This document shows positions 14,005 to 46,148 of a stretch of 64,000 nt of DNA, one piece after another; the stretch's first letter is position 1; every line of letters begins with the position of its first letter. The stretch comes from an uncultured Erythrobacter sp. (lineage in GTDB: Bacteria; Pseudomonadota; Alphaproteobacteria; Sphingomonadales; Sphingomonadaceae), in contig CAJXTZ010000003.1 in NCBI GenBank assembly GCA_913061345.1, forward strand, positions 10,244-74,243, read 5' to 3'. The notes below the pieces were generated by a model, which saw only the letters and a program-made list of their open reading frames with translations, had not been told where the DNA came from and did no database searches. The position numbers and the translations under genes are program-made.

Positions 14005-16929
14005 TCAAATGCCGATTTCAAAGGGCTTTACTCTTTCCTTCACGAGCTCCGGTGTATCCTTGGCAGGCGAAGCGCTCTCATTGGCCTTGCCTTGCGCAAG
14101 TCCTTTGGCAGCCGCGATCTTGAGGCGCTGCGTCACCTCGAGAGCCGAAGACTTTTCTCCGCTGTTGGCCTTGATGGCCCGGCCGAGCTTCTCGGCACTG
14201 TCAGCGACCAGCGTAAGACCGTCGCGAAGCCTGGTGACGGTTACGAGGAAGGTTTGTCGGTTGGCGAGATTGCGCTCGCGGCTGTCCATCACTGCAATAC
14301 CCCGATCCGAAGTCAGTCCCTGCGCCATGTGTGCGTTCAGGGCGTAGGCCAGGTCGAGGTGCTTCAACATGGGGTCGAGGCGCGACAAGCGAAGTGCATT
14401 GCCTGCCGAGGTTTCGACTGTAACGCCCTTGGTATCCACCGCGACGATCCTGGCCTGGTCGGCATTGAAGAGAGCGCGCTTGTGATCATTGTCGGTCCAG
14501 CGGATCTTGTCGCCCTCAAAAACCTCCAGCGATTTAAGCTCGAAGAGCGAAAATCGGTCATCACTCGCACCTGGTCTCAGTCGCGAAGGGCTGAATCTAT
14601 GCTGCCGTCCCTTCCTGTCTTCGAGCATCACGCGCTTTTTTGCGTGGTCGATGGATTTCACAGTGTAATCGCCTTTGGAAAGCTTCTGGCTGCTGTCGCG
14701 CGAACGGACATTCAGAACCATGCCTGCCCGATATGTGCCTATGTACCGAAGCTCCTCCCGCGTGGCATTGACCCGGGAGTGAACGGTCAGTTTCGCGGCA
14801 CGCGATCCAAGCTCACCGTTCGCCTTCAGTCCCTGCTGCACCGCCTCATTGACCGCAGAGCGCAATACGCGTCCGGATGCATAGATCGAAGTCCTTTCGC
14901 GCTCCGCAGGACTGAGAGAAAGCCATTGTTCGGCGGCAACGATGGCGCTGTCGCCTTTGGCCTCAACTGTCGCTGGTTCGAGCGCCTTCAGGGCGTCGTC
15001 GATACGGCCTTCCTGAGCCGCTGCTTGGGCGCGCCGCAAGACCGGGTCGCGGCCGCGCAGGTTGACCTCCATATTTGCCCGCTCGATGCCCGCCTGCTGC
15101 ACCAGTGCAAACGGCTTGCCGGCGTCGACCGCGCCAAGTTGCTGCCGGTCGCCAACGAGCACCAGCCTTTTGACTTCGGCGAGGTTTGCGAGGCGGATCA
15201 GCTTTGCCTTGTCGTCATTAGAGACCATCGAGGCTTCATCGAGGACAAGGATATGGTCACCGAGTGCGCTCTTCGCCTCGCGGACCAAGGCTGTGTTGCC
15301 AGGCTCTTTCAACAGGCGGCCCCATTGCGACAGGAAGCGGGCTATGGTCATCGAACGGATGCCAGTATCGCGTTCGAGCATCTGGACAAGCGTGTTCTGC
15401 ACGGCGAGGCCCAGCACTTGCTTGCCTTCCTCGCGTAGAAGCTGTGCAACCGGCTTCATCACGCTGCTCTTCCCGGCACCTGCAACGCCCTGGATCGCGA
15501 CGATCCGGTCGCGCGATGAGAGCACAAGGCTGGCCGCCTCTTCCTGACCCGGATTGAGCGTGATTCCGTGATTGATCGCTGACACCGCCTGAACGCGCGA
15601 ACCGGCGTCCTCGCGTTCGAGGATTGGCGCTACAGCGCTGCGCCCCTGGTCGACACCGGCAAGGATCACACCTTCAAGCTGCAAAGCCTCCTTGCTTGCA
15701 AGCCAGTCGGCATGCGCACCGGTCCCCCGCACCAGCGCGCCCGTTCGCACCAGTGCATTCACCTGCCTTTCGACCCGGTCCACTGTCGTTGGCAGCCCGA
15801 AATCCAGTGCTGCTTTGAGCAATCCGTCGCGTGGGAAAGCTGCCTCCCGCTGCGAGAGGTGTCGCACCGCGGAAGCAACAGCCTGCGCAGCCGCGATGGT
15901 AGGCGCATCTTGCTTGAGCACGTGGGCAGGGATCAGCGGGTCTGCCGGATCGCCTTTAATCCGCCGCGCAAACTCTCTCAGTTTTGTCATCCCACGCTGA
16001 ATGAAGCTGCCCTGTTTTGAGCTGGTGTTGGCGGCTGCGGCGGCACGCATGTGAGATGCTGCGATCATGGCTTGCAGATCGAGCCCGACCTCTCCTGCGC
16101 TTTGCTGCCACTGCTCGAGGAGGCCTTCGCGGTCCCTCACAGGTGCCTTGCTTTTCCTTGTATCAAGCACGGCAATGTCACGCGCTTTCGGAGAATTCTC
16201 GCCAAGTTGCCGGACCGCGTTGAGGACCTCTTCGCGGCGCGAAGAGAACGCCATGACCTGCTCGCGTGTGATAGCTGCGACTTCAAAATTTCCGTGCTTG
16301 CCCGCGGGACCAGCGGCATATCCCATTGTCTCGACCGCCATGCGAAAGCGGGCCATGGTCATCGAGTTAAGGAGAGTGTTGAAAGACCAAAGTTTGTCGT
16401 TGCGCAGTGCCCGCCACTTGCCGTCGGGCCCTTGCGTAGCGTTGGCGACAACCGCGTGGAAATGCAGATTGGGTTCCTGGTTGCGATTGGTATCGTGCTG
16501 GAAGAGACCAATTGTGAGGTTGTCAGTCGGGACCTTTCCGTAACCTTCCTTACTGCCCATCCGGGTCTGCGCCGCGTTTGTTTCGGCCCAACGCAACGTC
16601 TCGGTCACTGCCTCGCGATATGCTTCGATTATCCGCTTATCGCCGCCAACGAGCGCGAGGAGCGACCAGCTCTTAGGAAGAGAAAAAGTCAGGTCGGTAC
16701 CGGGCCTGTGGGACTGCCCGGCGTTGCCGACCTGGATGCTGCCGGGCAGTTCTCCGCGCAGTAGAGCATCGAACTGTTCGGTACTGACGCGGCCGCTAAG
16801 ACCGAGCCGTTCCGCACCTTTGCCGACCCAGGTTCCGGAGCGATCGGCATCTACACCGGTGTAGTAATTGTCGGCGGCAAAATAGCTTGCTGCAGCCGAG
16901 GGGGAGCGCACATTGGCAACGGAAAGCAT
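14005..16929 (-). CDS. traI: MobF-family conjugative relaxase/helicase TraI (TrwC-like)
   Basis: The 974-residue protein begins with the TrwC/TraI relaxase domain: N-terminal ASYFAADNYYTG with the Tyr pair, DLTFSLPKSWS, and the metal-binding NLHFHAVVAN near residue 155. A RecD2-like helicase follows with GVAGAGKSS as Walker A (about 482), LVLDEASMVSN as Walker B (about 560) and LVGDRQQLGAVDAG. Its C-terminus has LAYALNAHMAQGLTSDRG, a motif VI-like signature. It nicks at oriT, stays attached to the T-strand 5' end and unwinds it. It lies 58 bases downstream of traD. Confidence 0.95.
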   Translation of the reverse strand: MLSVANVRSPSAAASYFAADNYYTGVDADRSGTWVGKGAERLGLSGRVSTEQFDALLRGELPGSIQVGNAGQSHRPGTDLTFSLPKSWSLLALVGGDKRIIEAYREAVTETLRWAETNAAQTRMGSKEGYGKVPTDNLTIGLFQHDTNRNQEPNLHFHAVVANATQGPDGKWRALRNDKLWSFNTLLNSMTMARFRMAVETMGYAAGPAGKHGNFEVAAITREQVMAFSSRREEVLNAVRQLGENSPKARDIAVLDTRKSKAPVRDREGLLEQWQQSAGEVGLDLQAMIAASHMRAAAAANTSSKQGSFIQRGMTKLREFARRIKGDPADPLIPAHVLKQDAPTIAAAQAVASAVRHLSQREAAFPRDGLLKAALDFGLPTTVDRVERQVNALVRTGALVRGTGAHADWLASKEALQLEGVILAGVDQGRSAVAPILEREDAGSRVQAVSAINHGITLNPGQEEAASLVLSSRDRIVAIQGVAGAGKSSVMKPVAQLLREEGKQVLGLAVQNTLVQMLERDTGIRSMTIARFLSQWGRLLKEPGNTALVREAKSALGDHILVLDEASMVSNDDKAKLIRLANLAEVKRLVLVGDRQQLGAVDAGKPFALVQQAGIERANMEVNLRGRDPVLRRAQAAAQEGRIDDALKALEPATVEAKGDSAIVAAEQWLSLSPAERERTSIYASGRVLRSAVNEAVQQGLKANGELGSRAAKLTVHSRVNATREELRYIGTYRAGMVLNVRSRDSSQKLSKGDYTVKSIDHAKKRVMLEDRKGRQHRFSPSRLRPGASDDRFSLFELKSLEVFEGDKIRWTDNDHKRALFNADQARIVAVDTKGVTVETSAGNALRLSRLDPMLKHLDLAYALNAHMAQGLTSDRGIAVMDSRERNLANRQTFLVTVTRLRDGLTLVADSAEKLGRAIKANSGEKSSALEVTQRLKIAAAKGLAQGKANESASPAKDTPELVKERVKPFEIGI

Positions 16930-16987: not shown

Positions 16988-19303
16988 TCACATGTCGGGC
17001 TCGAACTCTCCGAAATCCTTCGCAGGTGGATCACTTACGGCGCCTTCACGCAGGTCCTTTTCAGCGGGCTTGATAGGCTTGGGTCCACTCTCCGGAGATC
17101 TGCTCTGGGACGAGGGATCGGCCTTGTTTTGGTAATCCCCGCCATCAATGCTGGCTTCGCGCTTGTCCTGCGCGATAGTCGAGACCGCGGCATCCTCGCC
17201 CGTTTGCACGGCAGAGGGCGGCAGGGTCGGTGACGTGCCAACGACAGCATCGGCGCTGGCTTCAGGTTTGGCCTCACCGGACTGTCTCCACGCCTCCAAC
17301 TGCTCACGAGAGTCGATTTCCGGACGATCCCGCGCCTCACAAACGGGCCTATCTGGTCTCGGCAGCTTCAGCTTGAGTTGCTTTGGATCGACAGGCTTGC
17401 CAGCGCCGTCATCGTTGGAGGCAGGATGCTCACCGTCCGTTTTAGGGCTGGGCTTTCGATTGGTCGCTGAAGCGTTGGCTGGGGCCCTTCCACTCTTAGC
17501 GGGCGATATCTCGCGAGGGATGAAACCCTCAGCGATCCGGTCGCGCGAGCGGGGTATGAGCGATACCGGCGCGGCAGGGAAACCATCGGGAAACTTGATG
17601 TAGGCCGACAGCCGCGGAAGGTTCATGAACTGGTCTGGCAGGAGCAAGGGTTCAACCTGCCGTCTGGGCGTCAGGCTGACCGCGTCGCGGGCATTGTTAT
17701 ACCCGTAGCTATAGCCCTCTTCCATGTCCCGCACCTGCCGGTGACCGATGAAATCGGAGCACCATGTCGCTGTCTCACGGTCAGCTGTCGCCAGGATAAG
17801 TTTGGTCCGTGCGAGCGAGGACAACGTCATGGCCATGTTCTCGCCGTAAACTTCCTTGAGCTTGGCATAAGCATGCACGCCGGTGACGATCGCCCCGCCA
17901 AAATTGCGCGCGGTCTGCAGGCCTTTCTCGAGTGCGGGCAAGCGGTGGAGAGCACCGAGCTCGTCGATCAGGAACCACATTCTCAGGTCCTGCGTGCGAT
18001 CGAGGGTCATCAGCGTGTTCATCGCCGTATCGAGCCACAGCGTGAGCAGTTGCGAGGAAATGCTCATGTCGACATAGCGCGCCGAGAGGAACAGGATCGA
18101 GCCCGTCTCGCAATCGCCCTTAACCCAGTCGCGGACCGAAAAGTGCGGCCCCTCCGAGGGCAAAAGCTTGAGTACTTTGGCATTGGCATTGAACACCGCG
18201 CGGATCGATTCCGCCATGCGGGCAGCCTCCGGAGCGGTCAGCGGATCGGCCATTGTCCCGCGCATCAGCTTGTGCACCTCGGACAGGTCCGCCGTCATCA
18301 ATTTCTGCGCCAACGCCTCATTGGTCGCTGTTCCTTTACGGGAGAGATGGAGGCACATCTCGACAAACAACATGCGCGCTGCAAGCACCCAGAACTGTTC
18401 CGATCCGCCGCCATCATGAGGAACGAGCGCTTCGGCTGCGGCATGGAACTCGGCTTCGCTCGAGCAGTCGTTGAACACGCTCCATAAGGGGCAGCGCGCA
18501 TCGATTGGATTGAGAATGATGTCGCGCGCGGAATCATAATAAGTCTCGATAAAGGCACCGGTCAGATCGAAGATGACCGCGCGGTGGCCGCGTTGGCGGG
18601 CCTCAGTCACGAGCTCGGTAAGCGCTAAAGTCTTGCCGGTTCCGGTCGTGCCGATGAGCATTGTGTGGCTCTGCTCGAGCCGCCATGGCCAGCGCACTCC
18701 AGCAAGGTGCGCGGGTTCGTAATGGCCGGCCTCAGTAAGGGCTGACGAGCTTGCCAGCCGCCACTTCCAGCCGAACTTTCGGCTGAGCTCTTCAGCGCGA
18801 TACTTGCCGTTATAGCGCTCGATTTCGTCCTCAAGCTCATCGAGCGAAACAAGCATGGCACCGCGCTCGTGCTTGCGCTCTTTGGCGCGTCCTCCGAAGC
18901 GTTCAGCGAACCACCAGAAGAACACAAAAGCCGGACTGAGAAGGACAGCCGACGTGAGCAAGCCTTGCTTCGCCGCGGTACGGAATGCATCGATCGTATC
19001 GCGCATCGGCGGGAAATCGCGTACCACCGCGAAGGGCAGACCGACCTTATCTCCGTCGGCCAGCGTGAGGTTGACGAGCTTGGCTGGATCGAACTCCATG
19101 AAAGCGTAAAGGCTGGCATAGACATGCATCCAGACCAGGTAGAACTGGTGATCGGTCAGGGTCGTTCGCACCTCCCAGTAACAGGTACCTAGAACCACAA
19201 GTGCGGTGACGATCACAGGACCCTTCAAGCCCGCTGCAAACATGAAGGCAAAGTGGCCGAGCAGCTGGCTTCCGCGAGTGAAGTTAAGGAGGTTATGCTT
19301 CAT
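16988..19303 (-). CDS. traD: Type IV coupling protein TraD (VirD4/TrwB-like)
   Basis: 771 residues. N-terminal membrane helices lie at about 10-45 and 125-145, then a VirD4-type ATPase: Walker A LIGTTGTGKTLALTELV (about 220) and Walker B WFLIDELGALHRL (about 440). The C-terminal 200 residues are a low-complexity Pro/Ser/Lys-rich tail, as in TraD proteins that dock relaxosomes. It recruits the TraI-DNA complex to the secretion channel. It overlaps the upstream ribbon-helix-helix gene by 11 bases. Confidence 0.93.
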   Translation of the reverse strand: MKHNLLNFTRGSQLLGHFAFMFAAGLKGPVIVTALVVLGTCYWEVRTTLTDHQFYLVWMHVYASLYAFMEFDPAKLVNLTLADGDKVGLPFAVVRDFPPMRDTIDAFRTAAKQGLLTSAVLLSPAFVFFWWFAERFGGRAKERKHERGAMLVSLDELEDEIERYNGKYRAEELSRKFGWKWRLASSSALTEAGHYEPAHLAGVRWPWRLEQSHTMLIGTTGTGKTLALTELVTEARQRGHRAVIFDLTGAFIETYYDSARDIILNPIDARCPLWSVFNDCSSEAEFHAAAEALVPHDGGGSEQFWVLAARMLFVEMCLHLSRKGTATNEALAQKLMTADLSEVHKLMRGTMADPLTAPEAARMAESIRAVFNANAKVLKLLPSEGPHFSVRDWVKGDCETGSILFLSARYVDMSISSQLLTLWLDTAMNTLMTLDRTQDLRMWFLIDELGALHRLPALEKGLQTARNFGGAIVTGVHAYAKLKEVYGENMAMTLSSLARTKLILATADRETATWCSDFIGHRQVRDMEEGYSYGYNNARDAVSLTPRRQVEPLLLPDQFMNLPRLSAYIKFPDGFPAAPVSLIPRSRDRIAEGFIPREISPAKSGRAPANASATNRKPSPKTDGEHPASNDDGAGKPVDPKQLKLKLPRPDRPVCEARDRPEIDSREQLEAWRQSGEAKPEASADAVVGTSPTLPPSAVQTGEDAAVSTIAQDKREASIDGGDYQNKADPSSQSRSPESGPKPIKPAEKDLREGAVSDPPAKDFGEFEPDM

Positions 19304-19625: not shown

Positions 19626-19742
19626 GAAACAGGTTCCTTGTCGGGCCGACGGAACCTGGCTCACCTTGCGGAAGGTGATGATGAGAATAAATCGTGAACA
19701 ACTCGCAGTCAATCGAAAGTTTAAGTAGTGATTACAATGCAC

Positions 19743-20027
19743 TATAGCGATGTGAGTTGTACACGGATCAGCGCAAAGCCGCTCTACTCGCAGACGGGTT
19801 GATTCCGCCCAAAACCGAATTTCTCAATCATATCATAATGATAAGTCCCGAATTCGCGGGGTAGGGTGTGCTCCCTTGTTCCCATATGCGCGAGGGAGGA
19901 CCAGACAATCAGGGGTCTTGATCTCGGACGCCTTTTTCCAACCTTCATGTTGGAGCGCGAGCAAGCGAGGCTGGGCAGGTCTTCCGGCTCAGTTCGTTGG
20001 CATTCGGGAGCCTTTGAGAAGACAACT
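19743..20027. other. Candidate origin of transfer (oriT) region
   Basis: Non-coding DNA directly upstream of the relaxosome gene. It is AT-rich at first and then has short inverted repeats: ATCAT...ATGAT around 19838-19853, and CTCCCT (19871-19876) paired with AGGGAG (19893-19898). Between them and the upstream GC step is GGGTAGGGTGTGCTCCC, whose GGTGTG at 19865-19870 recalls the F-type nic context. Leading-region genes to the right and tra genes to the left both point leftward, as expected if the plus strand is transferred rightward from here. The nic position is a guess. Confidence 0.45.
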
Positions 20028-20134
20028 GCACCTGCGAAAGAGGCAGCGGCAAAGGGCGCGTGGGAAGCAAGGCAAGCGGGGCATGTCGCTTGGCTGGCTT
20101 CCCGCCGCCCGACCCGTTGCCGGTTCGCAAGTGC
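20028..20134. repeat. Long imperfect inverted repeat (about 107 nt hairpin)
   Basis: The two arms pair over most of their length. GCACCTGCGAA at 20028 matches TTCGCAAGTGC ending at 20134, GGCAGCGG matches CCGTTGCC, and the inner GGGAAGCAAGGCAAGCG matches CGCTTGGCTGGCTTCCC with two mismatches. The loop is about 8 bases. No ORF with a ribosome site lies in it. Position between the candidate oriT and the first leading-region gene suggests a role in single-stranded DNA (single-strand initiation site or promoter), or a structured RNA. Confidence 0.6.
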
Positions 20135-20310
20135 ATGCAGGGCCCGGATACTTAAAACGCCGCACCCTCAGGAGCGCATCGCATGATGCGCGGGACAGAG
20201 TGCGTCCATAGCCCTGCTCCGTTTTCGGGCGCCGCTGCAAAGCGCGCGGTGCCCGTCAGCCCGGCACTATACCTGTTGACGACCCGCTATCACCGACCCC
20301 AGCGAACATG

Positions 20311-20346
20311 AAAAAAGGGCAGGAACCGTTCCCGGTTCCCGCCCTG
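20311..20346 (-). terminator. Rho-independent terminator after the 73-aa gene
   Basis: On the minus strand GGGCGGGAACC pairs with GGTTCCTGCCC and is followed by six T. It begins about 10 bases after the stop codon of the gene ending at 20356. Confidence 0.8.
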
Positions 20347-20355
20347 CCGATAGCC

Positions 20356-20577
20356 TCAGAACTCGTCGAGCATTCCCCCGTGGACCGTGTGGACCACCCG
20401 CGCCGTAAGATACGCTGGTAATGCGTTGTAGTCACCCTCGTCGAGAGCAACGTATCCAAGCTCGTCATCCTCGATAACGTGCTGGTCGAAGAAACTGTGA
20501 AGCGCTCTTTTCTCGGCGGTTTCAAGGGCCTCGAAGTAGCTGCGCGATGGTAGAGTGCAATGTGTAGAACAAGCCAT
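20356..20577 (-). CDS. Small acidic protein of the leading region, 73 aa
   Basis: Starts at the ATG 20577-20575 with an excellent ribosome site (ATCAGGAGGATTACC) that is closely shared by other leading-region genes. The product is acidic (YFEALETAEKRALHSFFDQH, then DDELGYVALDEGDYNALPAYL) and has no motif I recognise. It is the first gene after the putative oriT and has its own terminator. By analogy with other leading regions it could be an anti-defence or anti-SOS protein, but this is inference from position only. Confidence 0.7.
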   Translation of the reverse strand: MACSTHCTLPSRSYFEALETAEKRALHSFFDQHVIEDDELGYVALDEGDYNALPAYLTARVVHTVHGGMLDEF

Positions 20578-20649
20578 GGTAATCCTCCTGATATCTGTCG
20601 TGAGACGACAGGAGATCGCGCGATGGTCTTGCGTATTCCGGGTCACAGG

Positions 20650-20760
20650 ATCGCCCGAACGGGCGACCGCGGGAGCGGCGGTGGGGGCAACGATTTTGTC
20701 CGATGCCGGATGCAATCCGGTGGCGGCCAAAATGGTGGGGCCCCGCACGTCCTTGAGGCG
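20650..20760. repeat. Structured inverted-repeat element C (weaker relative of elements A and B)
   Basis: Upstream of the 73-aa gene. CAACGATTTTG (20688-20698) pairs with CCAAAATGGTG (20727-20737) with mismatches, enclosing a strong hairpin GCCGGAT/ATCCGG (20705-20724). A CCGC-GGGA-GCGG tetraloop hairpin lies just to the left, like the CCGC-GTGA-GCGG hairpin of element B. Sequence similarity to A and B is low; the likeness is in layout and in position upstream of a leading-region gene. Confidence 0.4.
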
Positions 20761-20923
20761 GGATATGCAAGGCCATCATGCTGGGAGAACCGTGAGCCAG
20801 GACCCACCACCTCCGCCCCAATATCAAACGCCCGCTAGGCACGAATTGCCTTTCCTACACCCTGATGACGCGTGCATGGAATTCACCGGGAGCAGATCTG
20901 AGGGGTATGAAAGGACAAAAAAC

Positions 20924-21190
20924 ATGCCCCGAAACAGGAGCGCGATTGCAGCCCTGCAGAAGCTCGAAGCGGATCGCGAAGCGCTTGACGCCAAACAGCG
21001 AGAGCTTGAGGCGCAAGCTGCAAAAGAACTCGGGCAAATCATCCTTGGAACCGGCCTTGAGACGTTCTCAAAGAAGGGATTGAAGCAGGTCGCCGAGGCG
21101 CTTGGAAAGCTCGGCGAAACAGCTGCAATTGCGAAGCTGGCGGAGCGCAGTGCACCACGAACTTCGACTGCCTCACCGGGCACCGAGTAA
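20924..21190 (+). CDS. Small helical conjugal-transfer-associated protein (TraC-like), 88 aa
   Basis: Starts at the ATG 20924, shortly after an AAAGGAC ribosome site. The sequence is a charged N-terminal coiled coil (ALQKLEADREALDAKQRELE) followed by KELGQIILGTGLETF and KGLKQVAEALGKLG. This is the layout of small TraC-like proteins beside oriT in Agrobacterium-type and sphingomonad elements, so an oriT-processing accessory role is possible. It is the only native leading-region gene here on the plus strand. Confidence 0.7.
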   Translation: MPRNRSAIAALQKLEADREALDAKQRELEAQAAKELGQIILGTGLETFSKKGLKQVAEALGKLGETAAIAKLAERSAPRTSTASPGTE

Positions 21191-21195
21191 CCACA

Positions 21196-21235
21196 AGAGA
21201 AGAGGCCCTGCCGCTTGCGGCGGAGCCTCTTCCCA
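21196..21235. terminator. Bidirectional terminator between the 88-aa gene and ssb
   Basis: GAAGAGGCCCTGCCGC and GCGGCGGAGCCTCTTC form a long stem with a TT loop between two convergent genes. There is no long T run on either side, so strength is uncertain. Confidence 0.6.
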
Positions 21236-21256
21236 AGGGTCCGATCACCTGCAGCT

Positions 21257-21643
21257 TCAGTCGATCGGGGGAGCGTCCTGGTTGTCGCTGCCAGCCGCGC
21301 GCGAGAGGAAGTCGACCTTATCGGCAAGGATCTCGCAGCCGTACCGCTTGATGCCGTCTTCGTCTTCCCACTGGGTGTAGTGGAGGCGGCCCTGGACCGA
21401 TACCAGCTGGCCCTTCGAGCAGTATTCGCCGACGGTTTTGGCGAGGCCATTGAAGCAGGTCACCCGGTGGAATTCGCTGTCCTTGGCGGTGTAGCCGTTC
21501 TCATCCTTGTAAGTCTTGCCGTCCTTGTCCCGCGCTGGGCGGTCGGTAACCACGGTGATGCCGGTAACGCTGGTCCCGCCTTTGGTTTCGCGGGTCTCGG
21601 GATCGCGGGCGATGCGGCCGGTGAGGATAACGAGATTGGTCAT
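21257..21643 (-). CDS. ssb: Single-stranded DNA-binding protein
   Basis: 128 residues from the ATG at 21643, with AAAGGAG 8 bases upstream. The OB-fold is clear (MTNLVILTGRIARDPETRET, then EFHRVTCFNGLAKTVGEY and GQLVSVQGRLHY). It lacks the long linker and the DDDIPF-type acidic tip of housekeeping SSB and ends in DNQDAPPID. Plasmid and ICE ssb genes of leading regions coat the entering strand and blunt the SOS response. It has a structured leader (element A) and a small hairpin (AAGCCGGAA/TTTCCGGTTT) just before its ribosome site. Confidence 0.95.
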   Translation of the reverse strand: MTNLVILTGRIARDPETRETKGGTSVTGITVVTDRPARDKDGKTYKDENGYTAKDSEFHRVTCFNGLAKTVGEYCSKGQLVSVQGRLHYTQWEDEDGIKRYGCEILADKVDFLSRAAGSDNQDAPPID

Positions 21644-21715
21644 GATAAATTCTCCTTTAGCTCTCAAACCGGAAACCACTTCCGGCTTGCGAACGTCGAA
21701 GAGAAACAGGGCATG

Positions 21716-21838
21716 GGAGGACTGCACCGCAGGCCCTCAGGCAAGCCTGTGGGCCAAGGGAAACCTGTTCATGACGGGTGGTGCGGGCAGCCCGCGCAGC
21801 GGGCAACACGGCCGGAAAGGAACAGGTTGCAGCGCCTC
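21716..21838. repeat. Structured inverted-repeat element A upstream of ssb
   Basis: Three nested parts are visible on the plus strand. An outer stem pairs GAGGACTGCA (21717-21726) with TGCAGCGCCTC (21828-21838), with a bulge. A side hairpin GGCCCTCAGGC/GCCTGTGGGCC spans 21732-21755. The inner stem pairs AACCTGTTC (21762-21770) with GAACAGGTT (21820-21828) and encloses GCGGGCAACACGG. Element B has the same layout, including AAACCTG, GCGGGTAACACGG and CAGGTTGC. On the minus strand it would be a 5' leader of ssb about 75 bases from the start codon. Confidence 0.7.
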
Positions 21839-21924
21839 AGCTGACCTGGTTCAGACAGGTTCGCAAGGAAAGCCGGAGTGGAGTCCGATTGGGCATAAAG
21901 GTAACTCGGAGATCCAATGTGTCT

Positions 21925-22197
21925 TCACTCTTTCGCATTGCCTTCGCCGCGCGCGAGAAGGTCCATGAAATTGCGGGCCGCCTCACGGTCATCATCATCT
22001 TCGAACGCCACTTCGAGGTCAGGGGCTGACCCAAGCATGTGGAGCAAGGCCCATAAGGCGAAACGCTTTCCGCGATCCTGCTCAAGGCCAAGATCGACCA
22101 GGCAGCGTTCAATGCCCGTAGCGAGGGTGTCGGGGGTAACGGAGGACACGTCGGTGTCATAGAAATAGCGGCTTAGCAGGTCATCGAGTTGCATCAT
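21925..22197 (-). CDS. Hypothetical acidic protein, 90 aa
   Basis: Start at 22197 (ATGATG; a start three bases later is equally possible); the ribosome site is weak. The product is an acidic helical protein (LDDLLSRYFYDTD, then GKRFALWALLHMLGSAPDLEVAF and DDREAARNFMDLLARG). I do not recognise a family. It lies between the ssb and DUF2493 modules on the same strand and probably belongs to the leading region. Confidence 0.65.
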   Translation of the reverse strand: MMQLDDLLSRYFYDTDVSSVTPDTLATGIERCLVDLGLEQDRGKRFALWALLHMLGSAPDLEVAFEDDDDREAARNFMDLLARGEGNAKE

Positions 22198-22422
22198 TGT
22201 GTCCGATGAGGCTTCGTGTTGGTGGCAGGCGTTAGCGTCATGAGAACGCCCCAAGGGACGATAAATGAGCCAGACATTTAGAGGAGAATTGGCGGGCGGT
22301 CGCTCAAAAGCGACACAGGGCCTATGGGGAAGTACGATCCCAAGAGAGCAGCACACAGCCACACACCAATCCGCCATTCAGCCATGCACCGCAAGAGGGC
22401 CAACCCCAGAGTAAGAAGCGGG

Positions 22423-22446
22423 AAAACGAGCGGCCGAAGCCGCTCG
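22423..22446 (-). terminator. Rho-independent terminator after the DUF2493 gene
   Basis: CGAGCGGC-TTCG-GCCGCTCG followed by TTTT on the minus strand, a perfect 8-bp stem with a tetraloop, beginning 16 bases after the stop codon. Confidence 0.8.
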
Positions 22447-22461
22447 CATTCAGGTCGGCTA

Positions 22462-23385
22462 TCAACCACCGGTGGGGTATCGACGATCGACCACAGTAAT
22501 CCGCTGAGCCTTGGCCTCGATGACCAGACGCTCGAGTACACCATTGCCCGGAAACGCAATGACGTAGCGGGGCTTCAAGCTCAGCATCTGCTCATTGCGC
22601 TTAAACCCAGCGCGGGCGCCAAGACGCCTGTCGAGGGAAAATACCAGTTGCTGGATGTCGCGTCGTTCGGCCCAGCTAGCTGCCAGCCGATCAACACCCT
22701 TACTGTCGCCGCCATGCACGAGAAGCATGTCGGGAACCTGATCGTAGACCTTGTCGAGGGTTGCCCAGACGGTTTCAGCAAAAGCTTTGGCTTCGTCAGT
22801 GGTTGCAAAGGATGATCGACCGCCTGCAAAAACGATTGGCGTGCCTTCGGGTGAGTGAGCGGCTCGGCGCCGTTCGGCGCGGGTGCGTAGAAAATCGCGG
22901 GCATCAACAACGGCTGATGTGATCTTGGCGGAGTGGTTTGGCCGGGAGCCGGACATGGGCTTCCATGAAGATCCAATCTCGTCGAGGTACAGACCAGCCG
23001 CGGTTTCCCGCATCTGTTCAAAAGCGATCATGCTGGCTTCTGCCGCCTGCGCGCGCTCAACCTGCTCGTCGAGATTGCTCGAATGGATTTCCGACCCATC
23101 GGCGGAGGCAAGCAAAGCGCGGATCTCGTCGCTCGCGCGGTCGAGCCGGGACGATTTGCGGCTGGCTGCGCGATGGAAAAGATTGACGAAACCCCAAGCG
23201 ATATCCTCGGCATCGGCCTCAAGAGCGGAATCTGCAAACATCGCAAAGAGGTCTGACCAGGCTCCGGCAAGCGTCTGATTGATTGCTTCGTCACAAGGAA
23301 AATCGGTCTGGGTAAATGGCGCGGGCTTGATGCTGAAGCCTGACAGGTCAAGGCCTGCGAGGTGGTCAATGAAGGTGTCATACAT
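22462..23385 (-). CDS. DUF2493 (SLOG-superfamily) domain protein
   Basis: 307 residues from the ATG at 23385 with AGGAGATTTGACC upstream. The C-terminal third is a DUF2493/YAcAr-type Rossmann-like domain: IVFAGGRSSF (about 182), VPDMLLVHGGDSKGVDRLA (about 218) and YVIAFPGNG (about 280). These domains are thought to bind nucleotide-derived ligands. The N-terminal half is helical with no known motif. The protein is common in sphingomonad conjugative elements. It has structured element B in its upstream region and a CTGATC/GATCAG hairpin directly before its ribosome site. Confidence 0.85.
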   Translation of the reverse strand: MYDTFIDHLAGLDLSGFSIKPAPFTQTDFPCDEAINQTLAGAWSDLFAMFADSALEADAEDIAWGFVNLFHRAASRKSSRLDRASDEIRALLASADGSEIHSSNLDEQVERAQAAEASMIAFEQMRETAAGLYLDEIGSSWKPMSGSRPNHSAKITSAVVDARDFLRTRAERRRAAHSPEGTPIVFAGGRSSFATTDEAKAFAETVWATLDKVYDQVPDMLLVHGGDSKGVDRLAASWAERRDIQQLVFSLDRRLGARAGFKRNEQMLSLKPRYVIAFPGNGVLERLVIEAKAQRITVVDRRYPTGG

Positions 23386-23464
23386 GGTCAAATCTCCTGA
23401 TCTTTTCGAGGGATCAGAAGACGCGACTTGATTGACTCGCTCCCGATCCGCCGGAGCCCGATCA

Positions 23465-23576
23465 GGGCCGGGACAAGGGTGAAAGCGCACCGCGTGAGCG
23501 GGAAACCTGCGGCCCTAGGCTGGCGCGGGTAACACGGGCCGAAGGGCCGCAGGTTGCGCCTTCACCCGACCGGCCC
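23465..23576. repeat. Structured inverted-repeat element B upstream of the DUF2493 gene
   Basis: The outer stem is GGGCCGG (23465-23471) with CCGGCCC (23570-23576), then GGGTGAAAGCGCA (23477-23489) with TGCGCCTTCACCC (23555-23567), one mismatch. A CCGC-GTGA-GCGG side hairpin sits inside it. The inner stem AACCTGCGGCCCT (23504-23516) pairs perfectly over 13 bp with AGGGCCGCAGGTT (23543-23555), around a loop containing GCGGGTAACACGG. The layout equals element A although the stem sequences differ, which looks like compensatory variation. Confidence 0.75.
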
Positions 23577-23678
23577 AGGGCCTCTCCCGGCGGAATGGGT
23601 TGAGACAAATCAGTGACTCTTTACCGAAATGGGCCGGAGTGCGACCTTTGCTGCCAATGCGAAACTGCCGAACCGATG

Positions 23679-24113
23679 TCATGGCGAAGCATTCGCGCGC
23701 TCGAAGATCGCCTCGCCATTGGAAAATCGTCCAACGAGACGGAGCTCTCCAAACACTTTGATGAATCTGTCAGACACCTGGGTGAGCCATTGCTGGGCAC
23801 GGCCCGATCTCGCATTTCGGTAGTCGGCCTCCCAATAACGGCTGTCGTCGCGTTCAACGATCCAGATAGCGGCGAGACCGCAATAGGTTGAAACCCCGCA
23901 ATCCGCGAAAGCGTTGCGAAGGAGGATGCGATCTTCACGGCCACGCCAGCCATCAAATGGCTCGAGTGATGGAAAGCAGGATCTGACCGTTTCGACGATG
24001 TCCTCAACGAGGCATTCGTAGGCCCAGTCGTCCTCCGCTTCGTCGACCAGACGAAATGCGACGATGGCACCCGTCGGATAGCTCACAGAGCGTCCAATGG
24101 TGGTCTCCTTCAA
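23679..24113 (-). CDS. Hypothetical protein, 144 aa, coupled to ardC
   Basis: Start ATG at 24113 overlaps the ardC stop by four bases (ATGA), so it is translated with ardC. It is a soluble protein rich in Trp and Asp (DEAEDDWAYECLVEDIV, FDGWRGREDRILLRNAFADCG, QQWLTQVSDRFIKVFGELRLVG). I do not recognise the family. Its tight coupling to an antirestriction gene in the leading region makes an anti-defence role possible but unproven. Confidence 0.7.
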   Translation of the reverse strand: MKETTIGRSVSYPTGAIVAFRLVDEAEDDWAYECLVEDIVETVRSCFPSLEPFDGWRGREDRILLRNAFADCGVSTYCGLAAIWIVERDDSRYWEADYRNARSGRAQQWLTQVSDRFIKVFGELRLVGRFSNGEAIFERANASP

Positions 24114-25045
24114 GCTGCTTGTTCGAGATCGTTGTCGTCTTCAGACGACTGGCGCTTATCCAGACCGCCAAGGCGCATCAGCAAGCTTGCCGCCTCCTCG
24201 GCCTTTGTTGCGGCTGTCAGGATTGCCCTGTCGTCGGACCTCAACAACTTCAGCCAAGACGCAATATAGCTCGCGTGATGGTCGAGGTGAGTCACGGGAA
24301 GACCAAGTTCTGCGCCGAGAATTGCCGAAGATAGTTCGGCTACGAGTTCTTCGGCCGCATAGGCCTCGCTGCCAAAGCGGTTCTTCAGATCGCGATCGAG
24401 TCGCGATGAATGTCCGGTCCAATGCGAAAGCTCATGCGCGAGCGTTGCGTAATAGTACTCGTATGCGTCGAAAAGATCACTCGGCGGCATTGTGACCCGG
24501 TCACGAACCGGTTCGTAATAGGCTTCGCAGCCGTGGTGGCGAAGATTAGCGCCGACAGACCCGAAGAAGTAATCGAGCCGTTCCTGTCGCCCTTCCGGCT
24601 CTACGGGTGCGAGGAGCGGTTGCGGATTGTACATTTGCGGCAGGCCATCGCACTGGTCTGCATTAAAGACGGCGTAAGCCTTAAGGACGCGGCGCGTCTC
24701 AGTGTCATCTTGGCCGCTGGGATCTTCGACCTCCTTTTCGTAGGTCTTGTAGAAGATCGCGATAGTCGACTTTTCGCCTTTGCGGACTTGTCCGCCCAGC
24801 TTCTGGCATTGCCGGTATGTCATCCAGTAGGGCGAGGAATAACCAGATGCATCAGCGATCATCCAAAGCCAAAAGGTGTTCATGCCCTGATAGGGCGTTC
24901 CACACGCACGAAGAGGGCGGGAGACGGGTAGCCCTCGCCATGGCTTGACCCAGGGCTTGGTGCCCTGTTCGAGCTTCTCGATGATTGTGGCTGTTATCCG
25001 CTGTGCGGGAGACTGCGACGAGGCTGAGCGCTTGAATTTCGGCAT
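24110..25045 (-). CDS. ardC: ArdC-type antirestriction protein (ssDNA-binding plus zincin domain)
   Basis: 311 residues from the ATG at 25045 (CAGGAGATCTTCC upstream). The N-terminal ArdC domain (AQRITATIIEKLEQGTKPW, GLPVSRPLRACGTPYQGMN) binds single-stranded DNA. The C-terminal zincin-like domain has the HExxH motif in LAHELSHWTGH (about 217) and EELVAELSSAIL with the third ligand. ArdC of IncW plasmids protects incoming DNA from restriction during conjugation. Its gene here points toward the putative oriT, as expected for early expression. Confidence 0.92.
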   Translation of the reverse strand: MPKFKRSASSQSPAQRITATIIEKLEQGTKPWVKPWRGLPVSRPLRACGTPYQGMNTFWLWMIADASGYSSPYWMTYRQCQKLGGQVRKGEKSTIAIFYKTYEKEVEDPSGQDDTETRRVLKAYAVFNADQCDGLPQMYNPQPLLAPVEPEGRQERLDYFFGSVGANLRHHGCEAYYEPVRDRVTMPPSDLFDAYEYYYATLAHELSHWTGHSSRLDRDLKNRFGSEAYAAEELVAELSSAILGAELGLPVTHLDHHASYIASWLKLLRSDDRAILTAATKAEEAASLLMRLGGLDKRQSSEDDNDLEQAA

Positions 25046-25194
25046 GGAAGATCTCCTGAATGCCGGGACGAGATTGTCCCAGAGCACTCAGAAAGAGCCC
25101 ACTTTCCTCTCTATTTTTGGTCGGCTTTGCGCCCCAAAGTCAGAAATAACAGGACATCGCAGCGTTTCCCAATAGCAGACATTTGGCTCGAGCC

Positions 25195-25238
25195 TTGCCA
25201 AGGTGGGATTGGGCGTTCGAATCGCTTCGCCGGCTCCA
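25195..25238 (+). other. 3' half of a tRNA-Gly(GCC), att-like remnant inside the ICE
   Basis: From the anticodon loop TTGCCAA onward the sequence follows tRNA-Gly(GCC): variable region, an intact T-arm with GGGCG-TTCGAAT-CGCTT, and an acceptor ending in CCA at 25236-25238. The 5' half is not tRNA-like, so this is not a functional tRNA. It resembles, but is not identical to, the tRNA-Gly fragment at 57610-57654. Such a 3' half is what a tyrosine-integrase attachment site in tRNA-Gly would leave or carry. Confidence 0.75.
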
Positions 25239-25260
25239 TGTTCTATGCTGAATTCAAGTA

Positions 25261-25290
25261 AAAATGGCCCGGCTGATGCGTGGGCCGTTT
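25261..25290. terminator. Terminator-like hairpin downstream of the tRNA-Gly fragment
   Basis: AAAATGGCCC and GGGCCGTTTT pair around an 11-base loop, giving a hairpin with an A run on one side and a T run on the other (can act in both directions). It lies 23 bases after the tRNA CCA, as a native tRNA terminator would, suggesting it travelled with the tRNA end. Confidence 0.65.
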
Positions 25291-25408
25291 TGCGCTGTGG
25301 ATTAATTGCACTGAGCTTACGTGCCCAGCTTCCAATACGCGGCCAACCAAGAAAAAAATTACTGCTATCATCTAGATAAACGTCGATGGGTCATCGAAGA
25401 AGGATCAC

Positions 25409-26038: not shown

Positions 26039-26151
26039 CAATAATGAACCTCGCTCTATCCAACAATTTGAGAAGAAAGCGTGACTCATAATTCACTCGC
26101 CCGCTAGTATGATTGCGGAGATGCCGGATTCTTTTCGTGAGCGGGGAAACT

Positions 26152-27345
26152 ATGAGAGTTAGATCATACAGAACGGGCGGGGAATGGCTCTCTGAAAAAG
26201 GCGCCGAAGACGAAGACCAAAATCTGCTTGCAGCCGGTGACGATCAACAAGATGATGGCCCGGACAAAGCTCGCCAAGATATTGATCGTGTTCTTTCTGA
26301 CATTCTTCGTTCTCACAATTTGAATGTTCTATCAGGTCTTGGCACATCGCTATGCGTTGATGGCGCACCGACAATGGGCAACCTGTGGGATGCCGTGAAG
26401 GACTCATATGAGCAGGTGCAGGAAGGAAGGCCCACATGGGCTGAGGTTCTCCAAATAGCACGTCATCCTGAAGACAACGAAGATATTGAAGAACTACTTT
26501 CACGTTGTAAGAGCGCGGAGGCCTTCGAGACCGGGGACGCCAAGGCGAACATCCGACGCTTCGTGGGGGATGCGGAGGCCATCATTCGGGATAGGGTCGA
26601 TTTCCTCGCAGCAGATCCGCTGCCTACTCATGAGGCCTTCCTCCGGAGGTTGGCTAGACGCTCGGTGAGGAGGGATCGGCTAAAGCTCTTCACGACAAAC
26701 TATGATCGATGTTTCGAACATGCCGCTCAGCGCGGCGGCTTCGTCGTCATTGACGGCTTTTCTTTCTCGCAACCGTCGGTATTTGACCCAATGCATTTCT
26801 CATACGACATTGTGCGACGCGGCAGCGAGCCTGACGCCCCCGACTACATCGAAAACTTGTTCCATCTCTACAAAATCCATGGCTCGATCGATTGGCAAGC
26901 AGATGAAGTCGCGAATAGAATTCAGAAGTTTCCAAAGACTAAGAAGCCGCTGCTGATCTACCCTCGTAACACCAAATATGAACTTGCCTTTGCGCAGCCG
27001 TATCTGGAGATGATGTCATCATTCCAGGCCTCGATCCGGCAGCGCGATGTTGGCTTGTTCGTTGTGGGCTTTGGATTCAATGACAATCACATCGCGGAAC
27101 CCATACTGGCGGCGATTGAGACAAACTTGGCAATGAAGGCGGTCGTAATTGCACCGGGACTTGAACAGCAGGCGGCGCAAAATGCTCATCTCAAAAAGAT
27201 GGTTGGTTTGATCGATAGAGGTGACACCAGACTGGCGCTAGTCGATGCGACATTCGAGGATATCGTGCCGATCTTGCCCGACGTGACGGCAATGACCGAT
27301 CTCGAGCGTCACGTGGACCGTGTGCGCGCTGTTCGAGAGAGCTGA
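26152..27345 (+). CDS. SIR2-domain NADase-like defence protein
   Basis: 397 residues from the ATG at 26152; a TTG further upstream would add 13 residues but has no better ribosome site. SIR2-like features are NVLSGLGTS (about 62-70, the G-x-G nucleotide site), LKLFTTNYDRCFE (about 170), KIHGSIDW with the catalytic-type His (about 240) and VVGFGFNDNHI (about 306). In SIR2-HerA systems the protein degrades NAD after phage infection as part of a complex with HerA. The downstream herA follows with a 2-base gap. Confidence 0.88.
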   Translation: MRVRSYRTGGEWLSEKGAEDEDQNLLAAGDDQQDDGPDKARQDIDRVLSDILRSHNLNVLSGLGTSLCVDGAPTMGNLWDAVKDSYEQVQEGRPTWAEVLQIARHPEDNEDIEELLSRCKSAEAFETGDAKANIRRFVGDAEAIIRDRVDFLAADPLPTHEAFLRRLARRSVRRDRLKLFTTNYDRCFEHAAQRGGFVVIDGFSFSQPSVFDPMHFSYDIVRRGSEPDAPDYIENLFHLYKIHGSIDWQADEVANRIQKFPKTKKPLLIYPRNTKYELAFAQPYLEMMSSFQASIRQRDVGLFVVGFGFNDNHIAEPILAAIETNLAMKAVVIAPGLEQQAAQNAHLKKMVGLIDRGDTRLALVDATFEDIVPILPDVTAMTDLERHVDRVRAVRES

Positions 27346-27347
27346 TC

Positions 27348-29033
27348 GTGACGCTTCCAACATCACCATTCGAAGCAACTCGATATCTAGGATCGGTGGT
27401 ACATGTCGAGCCGACATTCGTGCGGGTGAACTTGCCCTTTGGCAGCGAGGCAGCGTCCTCTGTCTATTCCGGACATCGGCTTGGCAAAGGCGTCGTCGGC
27501 GAATTTGTTTTCATAGAAGGCGAAGGGCATGCAGTGCTTGGCCGTTTGACACAAGTGCGATTGCCGGAAGGAGATCGTCTAACGGTCGAGCCCGCTAGGA
27601 GTTCTGACAAGACCATAGCTAACCCGGTCGGCACGTTACAGCTTTTGCTTTCGATTGAGCTAGATACCGGGAAGATTGTTCGCGGCATTCCAGAGCACCC
27701 TCGGATCGGCCAATATGCATACGCTGCCCATCCGCAGCTTGTGAAATATGCGATTGAAGACGAAGCCAACGACGATGAGCGCCACGTCGCCCTAGCCCAC
27801 ATAACGGATTCCGAAACTACCGTTTTGACATTTGCTCCGTCGGCCATTTTCGGACGGCACTGCGCCGTATTGGGAACGACGGGGGGCGGGAAAAGTTGGA
27901 CCGTCGCCCGACTTCTAGGTGAGGTGGCGAGACATCAGGGTAAAGCAATCTTGTTCGATGCGACCGGAGAGTTTCGAACTCTGAGCGAACGGGTCCGACA
28001 TGTATATTTGGGTGGAACACCAGAAGGTGACGATGACGATCGCGAGTTCGTTTGCTTCCCATATAAGCATTTGTCTGAAGGCGACTTATTCGCGATGTTT
28101 CAACCCAGCGGAGGCTCCCAATCTCCCAAGCTACGTGAAGCACTAATTAGCTTAAAGTTGGCACATCGGGCACCTGCGCTTGCCCAGAACGGGCTGATCG
28201 TAAAAGCTAACAGTCCCAAGGCAGCGTTCAACGCTTCATTAGCTCAACATGCTGGAGCAATCCGCGAACCCGGTGCCGAGTACGATATTCAGAGCCTACC
28301 TGACCAGATTTACGAGGAATGTGTCTGGCCGACAGGACAAGGTGGTAATGCGAACAATTGGGGAAATTATGACCAGAATAGCCGCGGCTACTGCACGACT
28401 CTCGTTAGCCGCATCGCCGTGCAAATCGGCTCCAATGAGATGGCCCCGATTTTCGCGCCGGGTAATGCTAATGACCTAACCGAAGTGCTGGAAGAATTTC
28501 TCGCAGAGGCCAATCAGAGCATCCTTCGCATTTCGATGGAGAATTTGCCCTACGAGCATAGCACCCGGGAGCTTGTTGCTAATGGCTTCGGACGTTACCT
28601 GCTCACAAAGGCACGTGCGGGTGCATTCCGTGCCCAGCCTCTGCTCACCGTCCTTGATGAAGCGCATCAGTTCTTGAACAAGTCTGTTGGTGATGAGTTC
28701 AATCGGTTTCGATTAGAATCCTTCGGCTTGATCGCGAAGGAAGGACGGAAATACGGATTGCTGACCGTACTAGCGACTCAACGACCGCGCGATATTCCTG
28801 AGGACGTGTTGAGCCAAATGGGCATGTTCATCGTTCATCGGCTCATCAATGAAAAAGATCGACTGATTGTCGAAAGAGCTTGCGGCAGCTTGGACACCTC
28901 GTCTGCATCGTTCCTGCCAATTCTCGGGCAAGGAGAGGCGCTTGTTATCGGATTGGACACTCCAATGACCATGCCTGTGCAGGTTTTGCTCCCTACCGAC
29001 GAACCGGATTCTACAGATATTGCCCTCTGGTAG
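27348..29033 (+). CDS. herA: HerA-like hexameric ATPase (DUF87/FtsK family), SIR2 partner
   Basis: 561 residues from a GTG two bases after the SIR2 stop, so the pair is coupled. An N-terminal HerA barrel domain is followed by Walker A VLGTTGGGKSWTVARLL (about 178), Walker B LLTVLDEAHQFLN (about 432), a TQRPRDIPEDVLSQ sensor region and an arginine-finger region near IVHRLINEKDRL. HerA assembles as a hexameric ring; with SIR2 it forms a defence complex that depletes NAD and may process DNA. No NurA partner is nearby, which supports the defence rather than repair role. Confidence 0.88.
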   Translation: MTLPTSPFEATRYLGSVVHVEPTFVRVNLPFGSEAASSVYSGHRLGKGVVGEFVFIEGEGHAVLGRLTQVRLPEGDRLTVEPARSSDKTIANPVGTLQLLLSIELDTGKIVRGIPEHPRIGQYAYAAHPQLVKYAIEDEANDDERHVALAHITDSETTVLTFAPSAIFGRHCAVLGTTGGGKSWTVARLLGEVARHQGKAILFDATGEFRTLSERVRHVYLGGTPEGDDDDREFVCFPYKHLSEGDLFAMFQPSGGSQSPKLREALISLKLAHRAPALAQNGLIVKANSPKAAFNASLAQHAGAIREPGAEYDIQSLPDQIYEECVWPTGQGGNANNWGNYDQNSRGYCTTLVSRIAVQIGSNEMAPIFAPGNANDLTEVLEEFLAEANQSILRISMENLPYEHSTRELVANGFGRYLLTKARAGAFRAQPLLTVLDEAHQFLNKSVGDEFNRFRLESFGLIAKEGRKYGLLTVLATQRPRDIPEDVLSQMGMFIVHRLINEKDRLIVERACGSLDTSSASFLPILGQGEALVIGLDTPMTMPVQVLLPTDEPDSTDIALW

Positions 29034-45738: not shown

Positions 45739-46148
45739 GGCATCTTCCTTCTTCGAGATTTAGTCGGGGGATAGCAGCCTTCACTGGAGCAATACAAACC
45801 GGCAACTCGTTATCAGCCATCATGCGAGCGGGCCGATTCTCCGAGTCGCGGGCCATTTTCGAAACGAAAATACTCATTGTCTCATTTTGCGGAATGATGA
45901 TGAATGTGCGCCTATCCGATTCATTCGCCTTGCCATCATAAGAGATGTCGAATGGGTGTCTTTATTACTTAGGTCCCACGACGACATATTTTTGCCTCTT
46001 CACCAATGTATCGATCCAAATGACCAACATGTTCCGCAGGCATCGAAGACCGATCGACCTTGGATCGAGCACACCGTACAATTACTGGGACGCCTTTGGC
46101 GCGTTAATTCTGTGGCCGATCATCTTTTTCGCTAGAAAGGATGATCCG
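45739..46148. other. Intergenic stretch before the TonB-like gene
   Basis: 410 bases. The frame of the downstream gene stays open upstream to 45945 and encodes a stretch with YNYWDAFGALILWPIIFFARK. No ribosome site precedes its possible starts, so I treat it as leader. AT-rich patches suggest promoters for the divergent genes. Confidence 0.45.

Follow-up and report, generated by a model that had tools for sequence, protein, structure and literature searches.

What do the inverted repeats that precede three leftward genes next to a putative origin of transfer (oriT) do? The question is raised by 64,000 nucleotides of DNA from an uncultured Erythrobacter sp. (assembly GCA_913061345.1, contig CAJXTZ010000003.1, positions 10,244 to 74,243), a stretch referred to here as the window, in which elements A, B and C stand before ssb, a DUF2493 gene and a gene for a 73-aa protein (p73), respectively. 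A known precedent is provided by the Frpo elements of plasmid F, from which genes are expressed on incoming single-stranded DNA (ssDNA), according to the available text of PMC11541004 and PMC9849209; Frpo2, situated before ssb in F, is described there as required for early expression in vivo (PMC9849209). The best reading of A, B and C is that they are single-strand promoters or priming sites that resemble Frpo in kind but follow a new and apparently unrelated design, based on GNA hairpins that should resist SSB. More specifically, we put at about 55% the probability that they work as folded ssDNA of the transferred strand (T-strand) and start leftward RNA into p73, ssb and the DUF2493 gene in the recipient. 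This estimate draws on four computed properties: conservation, covariation in B and C, folding biased towards the T-strand, and placement before leading-type genes.

The three elements, with their predicted architecture, are:

21689..21864, plus strand: element A, a three-way-junction T-strand element, model core 21712-21842
23447..23594, plus strand: element B, a three-way-junction T-strand element, core 23475-23569
20622..20777, plus strand: element C, a four-way-junction T-strand element with two side hairpins, model core 20630-20766

The original prediction, made from the letters of the window, had located all three. The inner stems it described, of 9 bp in A (AACCTGTTC/GAACAGGTT) and 13 perfect bp in B (AACCTGCGGCCCT/AGGGCCGCAGGTT), are present together with the shared loop text, but its limits were too narrow, as the outer arms of A (21689-21694/21859-21864, GCGAAC/GTTCGC), B (23447-23458/23583-23594) and C (20622-20632/20767-20777) reach beyond them. 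On the T-strand the A/B core reads GCACC-[side hairpin]-GGGRAACC-[stem]-TGGYGCGGG..ACACGG-[stem']-GGTTGC, and TGGYGCGGG...ACACGG is conserved and unpaired. In one A/B group the side hairpin is reduced to about CC-GNA-GG, and in the RNAalifold structure of A3 it is not formed, GCCGC pairing with GCGGTGC instead. The only two exact occurrences of CGGGYAACACGG in the window are those at A and B; with one mismatch allowed the number of sites rises to four, a number never reached in 100 shuffles, for which the mean was 0.44. A and B look like one family.

Three covariance models were used: R1, from 19 B copies; R2, from 17 A and five distant B sequences; and R3, from 24 C sequences. A5 and A6 were left out because their inner loops or side hairpins were misaligned. 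A was compiled without L072, where ssb is interrupted, and its wobbles were counted without L090, where A carries an insertion; six A/B sequences and L066 were dropped because the search string was missing. Within the window, A matches R2 (E 5e-23; window A is among the seeds) and is conserved across 28 aligned sequences. B matches R1 (E 2e-25; window B is a seed) and R2 (E 6e-9; window B is no seed), the latter match not being independent proof of A/B homology because R2 includes distant B sequences. C matches R3 (E 1e-25; window C is one of the 24 seeds). C had been taken for a weaker copy of A and B, a relationship that we reject: R2 misses C and R3 misses both A and B, finding C only (next match in the window E 0.7). 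Judged by these models, C is a separate, strongly conserved class.

Compensatory changes, expected if the predicted pairing matters, are seen in relatives of B and C, and the covariation is clear for C. In C, 97.5% of alignment cells are paired, compared with 89.8% after shuffling, and two-sided changes affect 12 of 42 pairs (score 0.237 versus 0.095 in shuffles, 0/500). The corresponding figures for the 19 B sequences are 97.2% versus 91.9%, with two-sided changes in 12 of 50 pairs, a count equalled by 6 of 500 shuffles, and a score of 0.176 versus 0.087 (0/500). In A, 21 of 59 pair columns, flanks included, show at least two Watson-Crick types. Conservation and covariation rule out chance inverted repeats.

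Which strand would enter a recipient depends on the position of nic, for which the locus offers a candidate. The relevant features are:

19861..19871, plus strand: nic-like motif GTAGGGTGTGC, putative oriT nic; wider text GCGGGGTAGGGTGTGC at 19856-19871
20356..20577, minus strand: gene for the 73-aa protein p73, element C before it, with homologues in syntenic loci
21257..21643, minus strand: ssb, element A before it (Pfam SSB, 1e-27)
22462..23385, minus strand: DUF2493/YspA-like SLOG family gene, element B before it (Pfam YAcAr, 1e-19)

DNA 3' of nic enters the recipient first; this, like the exact cleavage position in F, is general background. If 19861-19871 is nic, the plus strand would be the T-strand and would enter rightward, and p73, ssb and the DUF2493 gene would use it as their template, as had been proposed from gene direction. 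The assignment is inferred from similarity to oriT oligonucleotides of F/R1 containing GCGTGGGGTGT, as given in the available text of PMC4949242 and PMC5422253. It is supported by GTA[CG]GGTGTGC, which lies next to the start of a 149-aa gene on the T-strand (plus-equivalent) in every one of the 18 loci examined, namely the window and 17 relatives. A second occurrence in the window is on the minus strand, near 46069.

The strand on which the elements fold can be read from the mismatches that their helices tolerate. If an RNA folds, tolerated mismatches are expected as G-U on the gene strand. With consensus structures computed without G-U, the gene strand of element helices reads A-C, equivalent to G-T on the T-strand, in 182 cells (63 types), versus 52 cells (34 types) of the opposite kind (types, p 0.004). 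Outside the element spans, where A and C only contribute pairs, the polarity is reversed, with nine cells (three types) of the T-strand kind versus 31 (10); these pairs belong mostly to hairpins between element and start codon, and a small number lie upstream or in the flanks. In A and B, this bias is absent from unpaired columns. A separate test used Watson-Crick-only folds of 36 diverse copies, each counted twice as both orientations were folded, and favoured T-strand G-T by 32:6 at 1x1 mismatches and 77:21 at helix ends; other mismatches were commoner (116 at 1x1). In 202 control windows the same test gave 50:46 and 375:385, with a composition expectation of 0.95. A set of 38 ssb-adjacent copies, with genomes partly shared with the 36, gave 26:6 and 62:35.

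Hairpin loops point to the same strand. Among perfect hairpins with a stem of at least four pairs and a loop of three or four nucleotides, counted in 28 A, 40 B and 27 C sequences, T-strand GN(N)A loops number 108 (37 distinct, per element) versus four TN(N)C loops (one distinct). In the rest of the loci the numbers are 476 versus 436. Seventeen divergent copies, L140 included, have 19 GN(N)A loops versus one TN(N)C. GNA and GNNA loops closed by at least two G-C pairs form extraordinarily stable, nuclease-resistant DNA mini-hairpins, as the available text of PMC4686876 describes.

Folding energy adds to this. The T-strand DNA fold is the stronger in 35 of 36 copies, and after correction by shuffling its z remains the better one in 29 of 36 (Wilcoxon p 1e-5). 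With DNA parameters, the minus strand of A does not fold significantly (15/200 shuffles do as well), while the plus strand of A and both B and C strands do. With RNA parameters, at most 2/200 shuffles fold as well as either strand of any element, the z values for plus and minus being -2.4/-2.9 for A, -4.7/-6.2 for B and -3.7/-2.4 for C. Fold energy alone is not specific, since a sliding scan of 13801-34910 shows other structured windows. Wobble polarity, loop type and fold energy together favour T-strand ssDNA over an mRNA leader.

Placement of the elements was followed across relatives. A DNA search with B found matches in 14 of 99 genomes near genome G001, and R1 matched 52 places in 46 genomes out of 396 from the order; 40 of these places were taken as contexts of 9.0-16.2 kb. 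These share the gene order ParB, ArdC, p144, B, DUF2493, p150, A, ssb, C, p73, nic-like site, p149, coupling protein and relaxase, as far as each stretch extends and with some genes missing or displaced in some loci. Of 45 R1 matches in 41 sources (the 40 contexts and the window), a full copy lies directly before DUF2493 in 40 sources, the copy in L057 falling below threshold. The others comprise two matches before ssb, in L059 (E 0.008) and L058 (E 0.8), the only loci in which R1, built from B only, reaches A there, and three partial antisense matches. Homologous copies with compensatory changes, whose absence would have counted against the original prediction, exist for B and C, as already described.

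Across 385 genomes of the class, R2 matches three and R3 six, and in one further family R3 matches 12 of 82 genomes; G001 has six R2 and five R3 matches over several loci (L091, L090, L120, L121, L122 and L119). Divergent copies precede ssb in L116, L117, L118 and L119, a p73-like gene in L119 and L137, and DUF2493 in L137 and, weakly (E 0.04), in L119. Eight plasmids were picked from 60 listed records, 196 records having a match; another listing of plasmids, drawn up by SSB, went unused, Escherichia making up most of it (3145/5000). By relaxase, those of Aurantiacibacter, Novosphingobium (pCAR3) and Croceicoccus are MOBF, those of Sphingobium cloacae and Marinibacterium MOBP, and that of Nitrobacter MOBQ; those of Sphingomonas hankookensis and S. 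naphthae have no typed relaxase. In all eight, R2 finds a match immediately upstream of ssb and on the strand opposite to it (E 4.4e-5 or better; that of Marinibacterium is partial), a count of adjacency to ssb irrespective of its orientation relative to oriT in the MOBP and MOBQ plasmids. Two of the eight have a second match before DUF2493.

A pattern scan (GTGCGGGCAG, a gap, then CAACACGG[CT]C; one genome per species) returned at least 119 stretches, of which 80 were analysed. Among the matches listed, these 80 hold 82 pattern matches, 31 followed downstream by an SSB frame of opposite strand and nine more judged ssb-adjacent because of overlap with an over-long frame, giving 40. In these 40, the inner variable hairpin has a GN(N)A loop in 27 (14 distinct) versus none with TN(N)C; 12 have other loops and one has no hairpin. 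The other 42 listed matches, some at contig ends and many from other phyla and resembling chance, have 15 versus none. Also among the matches listed, Burkholderiales records L179 and L211 each carry the T-strand core motif twice, 4.1 kb apart, with one copy before a gene for a ParB-like protein of 765 aa (Pfam E 9e-5, below cut-off), and a Rhizobiaceae record has a copy before an ArdA-like gene (E 2e-4, below cut-off).

These observations suggest how the elements might act. As the plus strand enters the recipient, A, B and C would fold as three- or four-way junctions. Each would comprise two larger stems, one that closes the junction and one at its centre, together with small side hairpins (one or two) and unpaired sequence that is conserved. 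The GNA/GNNA mini-hairpins may hold the fold while host SSB coats the strand, and the folded strand could then recruit a polymerase, most likely host RNA polymerase. RNA would start leftward on the T-strand into p73, ssb and the DUF2493 gene before a complementary strand exists, and the same RNA may also prime second-strand synthesis. Once the DNA becomes double-stranded, the folded element would disappear. SSB resistance, polymerase recruitment and early transcription are inferred.

The region between element and start codon is also informative. All three genes have a hairpin over or near the ribosome site:

20578..20615, minus strand: ribosome-site hairpin of the 73-aa gene, TCTCCTGTCG..CGACAGATATCAGGAGG
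21644-21690: hairpin at or near the ssb ribosome site
23386..23425, minus strand: ribosome-site hairpin of the DUF2493 gene, CTGATC..GATCAGGAG

In the C alignment the wobbles of the hairpin at 20578..20615 (alignment pairs 224-255 to 234-238) are mostly gene-sense G-T, as in RNA. Conserved hairpins in these places suggest that RNA starts upstream of them, which would fit a start at or near each element.

Known systems provide partial parallels. Like the Frpo/ssi (single-strand initiation) sites of F and ColIb-P9, A, B and C lie in a leading region, directly upstream of ssb or establishment genes, with the T-strand as template and folded ssDNA as the predicted active form; the leading region of F is also alike in content, with ssb, a ParB-like gene and an antirestriction gene. 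They differ from Frpo in being compact, GC-rich three- or four-way junctions with many GNA/GNNA loops, and a box test of low power recognised no -35/-10 boxes in them. In F 48000-67500, the one such region compared, R2 finds nothing up to E 1 and the best R3 match has 12.5 bits (E 0.91), so that neither model has a significant match there. Promoters of the N4 virion RNA polymerase provide another comparison: in the available text of PMC4496689 they are template-strand hairpins with a three-base loop and a sheared G:A pair, not melted by SSB. A, B and C resemble them in their T-strand (template) hairpins with a GNA-type loop, but N4 promoters are one small hairpin used by a phage polymerase, whereas the hairpins here are parts of a larger junction. 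DNA mini-hairpins of the d(GCGAAGC) type are a physical motif and not a gene-regulatory family, although 108 of the 398 small hairpins counted follow their loop and G-C stem rule.

Several observations weigh against single-strand promoters. No -35/-10 match in A, B or C exceeds 6/12, a score that 200/200 shuffles reach; the same box test gives 8/12 in the Frpo region of F, reached by 173/200, and it has little power since that region, too, is no better than chance. A sigma70-like scan of 19700-25400, also of low power, gave no signal beyond a single site on the minus strand. Taken singly, the wobble column types are weak for A (16:10) and B (23:17) and strong only for C (24:7), and in C unpaired columns show G>A at 0.146 versus C>T at 0.066, so part of its polarity could be strand-biased mutation. 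Related sequences are non-independent and p-values from cell counts overstate significance; the 36-copy ratios carry the double counting given with them. Further pair types in B are not above shuffles (456/500 reach the count), and both strands of B fold about equally well. Other loop types account for 286 of the 398 small element hairpins, a divergent copy in L113 has a TNC loop, and a clean junction is absent from the minimum-energy DNA fold of L116:9479 and L117. Regarding placement, the gene directly downstream is without recognised identity in L112, L113, L114, L138, L139 and L144, where DUF2493, ParB, ArdC or coupling-protein matches occur elsewhere in the stretches. No leading-type gene was recognised in the stretches around the R3 matches of L115, L140-L143, L145 and L146, and two of the 12 R3-matching genomes of the further family carry four or five alike 70-nt copies, resembling another repeat. 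The limits stated above for the plasmid count and for the R2 match to window B count on the same side.

Of the alternatives, the one that survives best is single-strand initiation of replication, in which a primase or primosome protein recognises the folded T-strand and starts the complementary strand, the genes benefiting through early double-stranding. All the T-strand evidence (wobble, loops, fold energy and mismatches) fits it equally, and Frpo itself reportedly makes primer RNA as well, to go by the title of a 1997 paper by Masai and Arai. Several copies in the same orientation, each directly upstream of a separate gene, exceed the need of one origin and fit expression better than priming, and we regard priming as the sole function as unlikely, though a serious contender. 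Structured mRNA leaders of the leading genes, riboswitch-like or protein-binding, were the alternative that the original prediction itself had offered. They would account for elements upstream of start codons, a stable gene-strand fold, the covariation and the RNA-type hairpins between element and start codon. The polarity of the element wobbles is nevertheless opposite to that of RNA and becomes RNA-like only outside the elements, the gene-strand G-U wobbles typical of Rfam leaders being the minority (52 gene-strand versus 182 T-strand cells), and the GNA/GNNA loops are on the other strand. Against Rfam 15, the window gave a tRNA alone at gathering score and one sub-threshold match (E 3.9), outside the elements, in agreement with the earlier view that the motif belongs to no listed RNA family. 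Leaders are therefore improbable. Slightly more improbable still is that an element-encoded protein such as ArdC, SSB or the ParB-like protein binds the extruded or single-stranded DNA for protection or regulation, with no role for a polymerase. The unpaired TGGYGCGGG...ACACGG is conserved beyond the needs of pairing and the elements co-occur with ssb and ArdC, but they are also found in plasmids with differing gene sets and relaxase classes. Least probable is an antisense or trans-acting plus-strand RNA folding into the junctions: the plus strand does fold best and carries G-T (G-U) pairs, but only 3 of 16 distinct GNNA hairpins follow the RNA rule GNRA and 13 are GNYA, which speaks against RNA from that strand, GNA triloops follow the DNA mini-hairpin rule, placement tracks the downstream minus-strand genes, and the only sigma70-like site in 19700-25400 is on the minus strand, although this last argument carries little weight in a GC-rich alphaproteobacterial element.

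If A, B and C are indeed single-strand promoters, control of leading regions by single strands would be more widespread and have more than one design. As a tentative extension, somewhat short of an even chance, alphaproteobacterial and perhaps some betaproteobacterial conjugative elements may have their own single-strand promoter class, with no sequence kinship to Frpo and no sigma70 boxes, recognised through an SSB-resistant GNA-hairpin junction together with its conserved unpaired bases; at least two classes, A/B and C, would share one leading region and start ssb and establishment genes on the entering strand. In the partial texts available, the plasmids described as expressing genes early from incoming ssDNA are F- and ColIb-like and carry Frpo/ssi sequences. 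Two surveys relied on BLAST against Frpo sequences, known or candidate, and one of them made use of sigma70 boxes as well; elements of the present type would probably have been missed by such methods. No paper on ssDNA promoters or Frpo in alphaproteobacterial or sphingomonad leading regions was found, which is weak evidence of absence as subscription journals were thinly covered. A paper on pLS20 is said to mention ssDNA promoters. The GNA-loop and wobble-polarity tests may be of wider use, as a sequence-only way to separate ssDNA elements from RNA leaders.

The surrounding locus is a conjugative module on the minus strand of the window, with all listed genes pointing left:

14005-16929, minus strand: TrwC relaxase
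16988-19303, minus strand: TrwB-like coupling protein

To the right of the coupling protein, ssb, the DUF2493/SLOG gene, ArdC and a ParB-like gene all run leftward. The 73-aa protein matched none of the Pfam families searched.

A second candidate for nic, of R388 type (GTGCGTCC/ATAGCCC near 20206), was rejected, as its exact text is present only in the window, L091 and L087 among the 18 loci; the R388 oligonucleotide compared comes from the available text of PMC4814116. The site belongs to a plus-strand hairpin, GCGCATCGCATGATGCGC followed by GGGACAGAGTGCGTCC (20160-20225), that has the look of an R388-type nic and is partly kept in nearer relatives; the distant group does not keep it. Between the nic-like site and the 73-aa gene lies another structured stretch (20028-20141), of which nearer relatives retain a part; in the sliding scan of DNA folds, 20001-20160 has a plus-strand z of -3.8. 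A TGTAGGAAA-like motif stands on the gene strand at 20851-20859, 74 bases past the end of element C in the window, and is found upstream of C in most displayed relatives. Finally, a SIR2-like and HerA-like gene pair (26113-29033, plus strand; PADLOC SIR2 2e-91, HerA 4e-174) sits between ArdC and the ParB-like gene on the opposite strand, as if inserted into the leading region.

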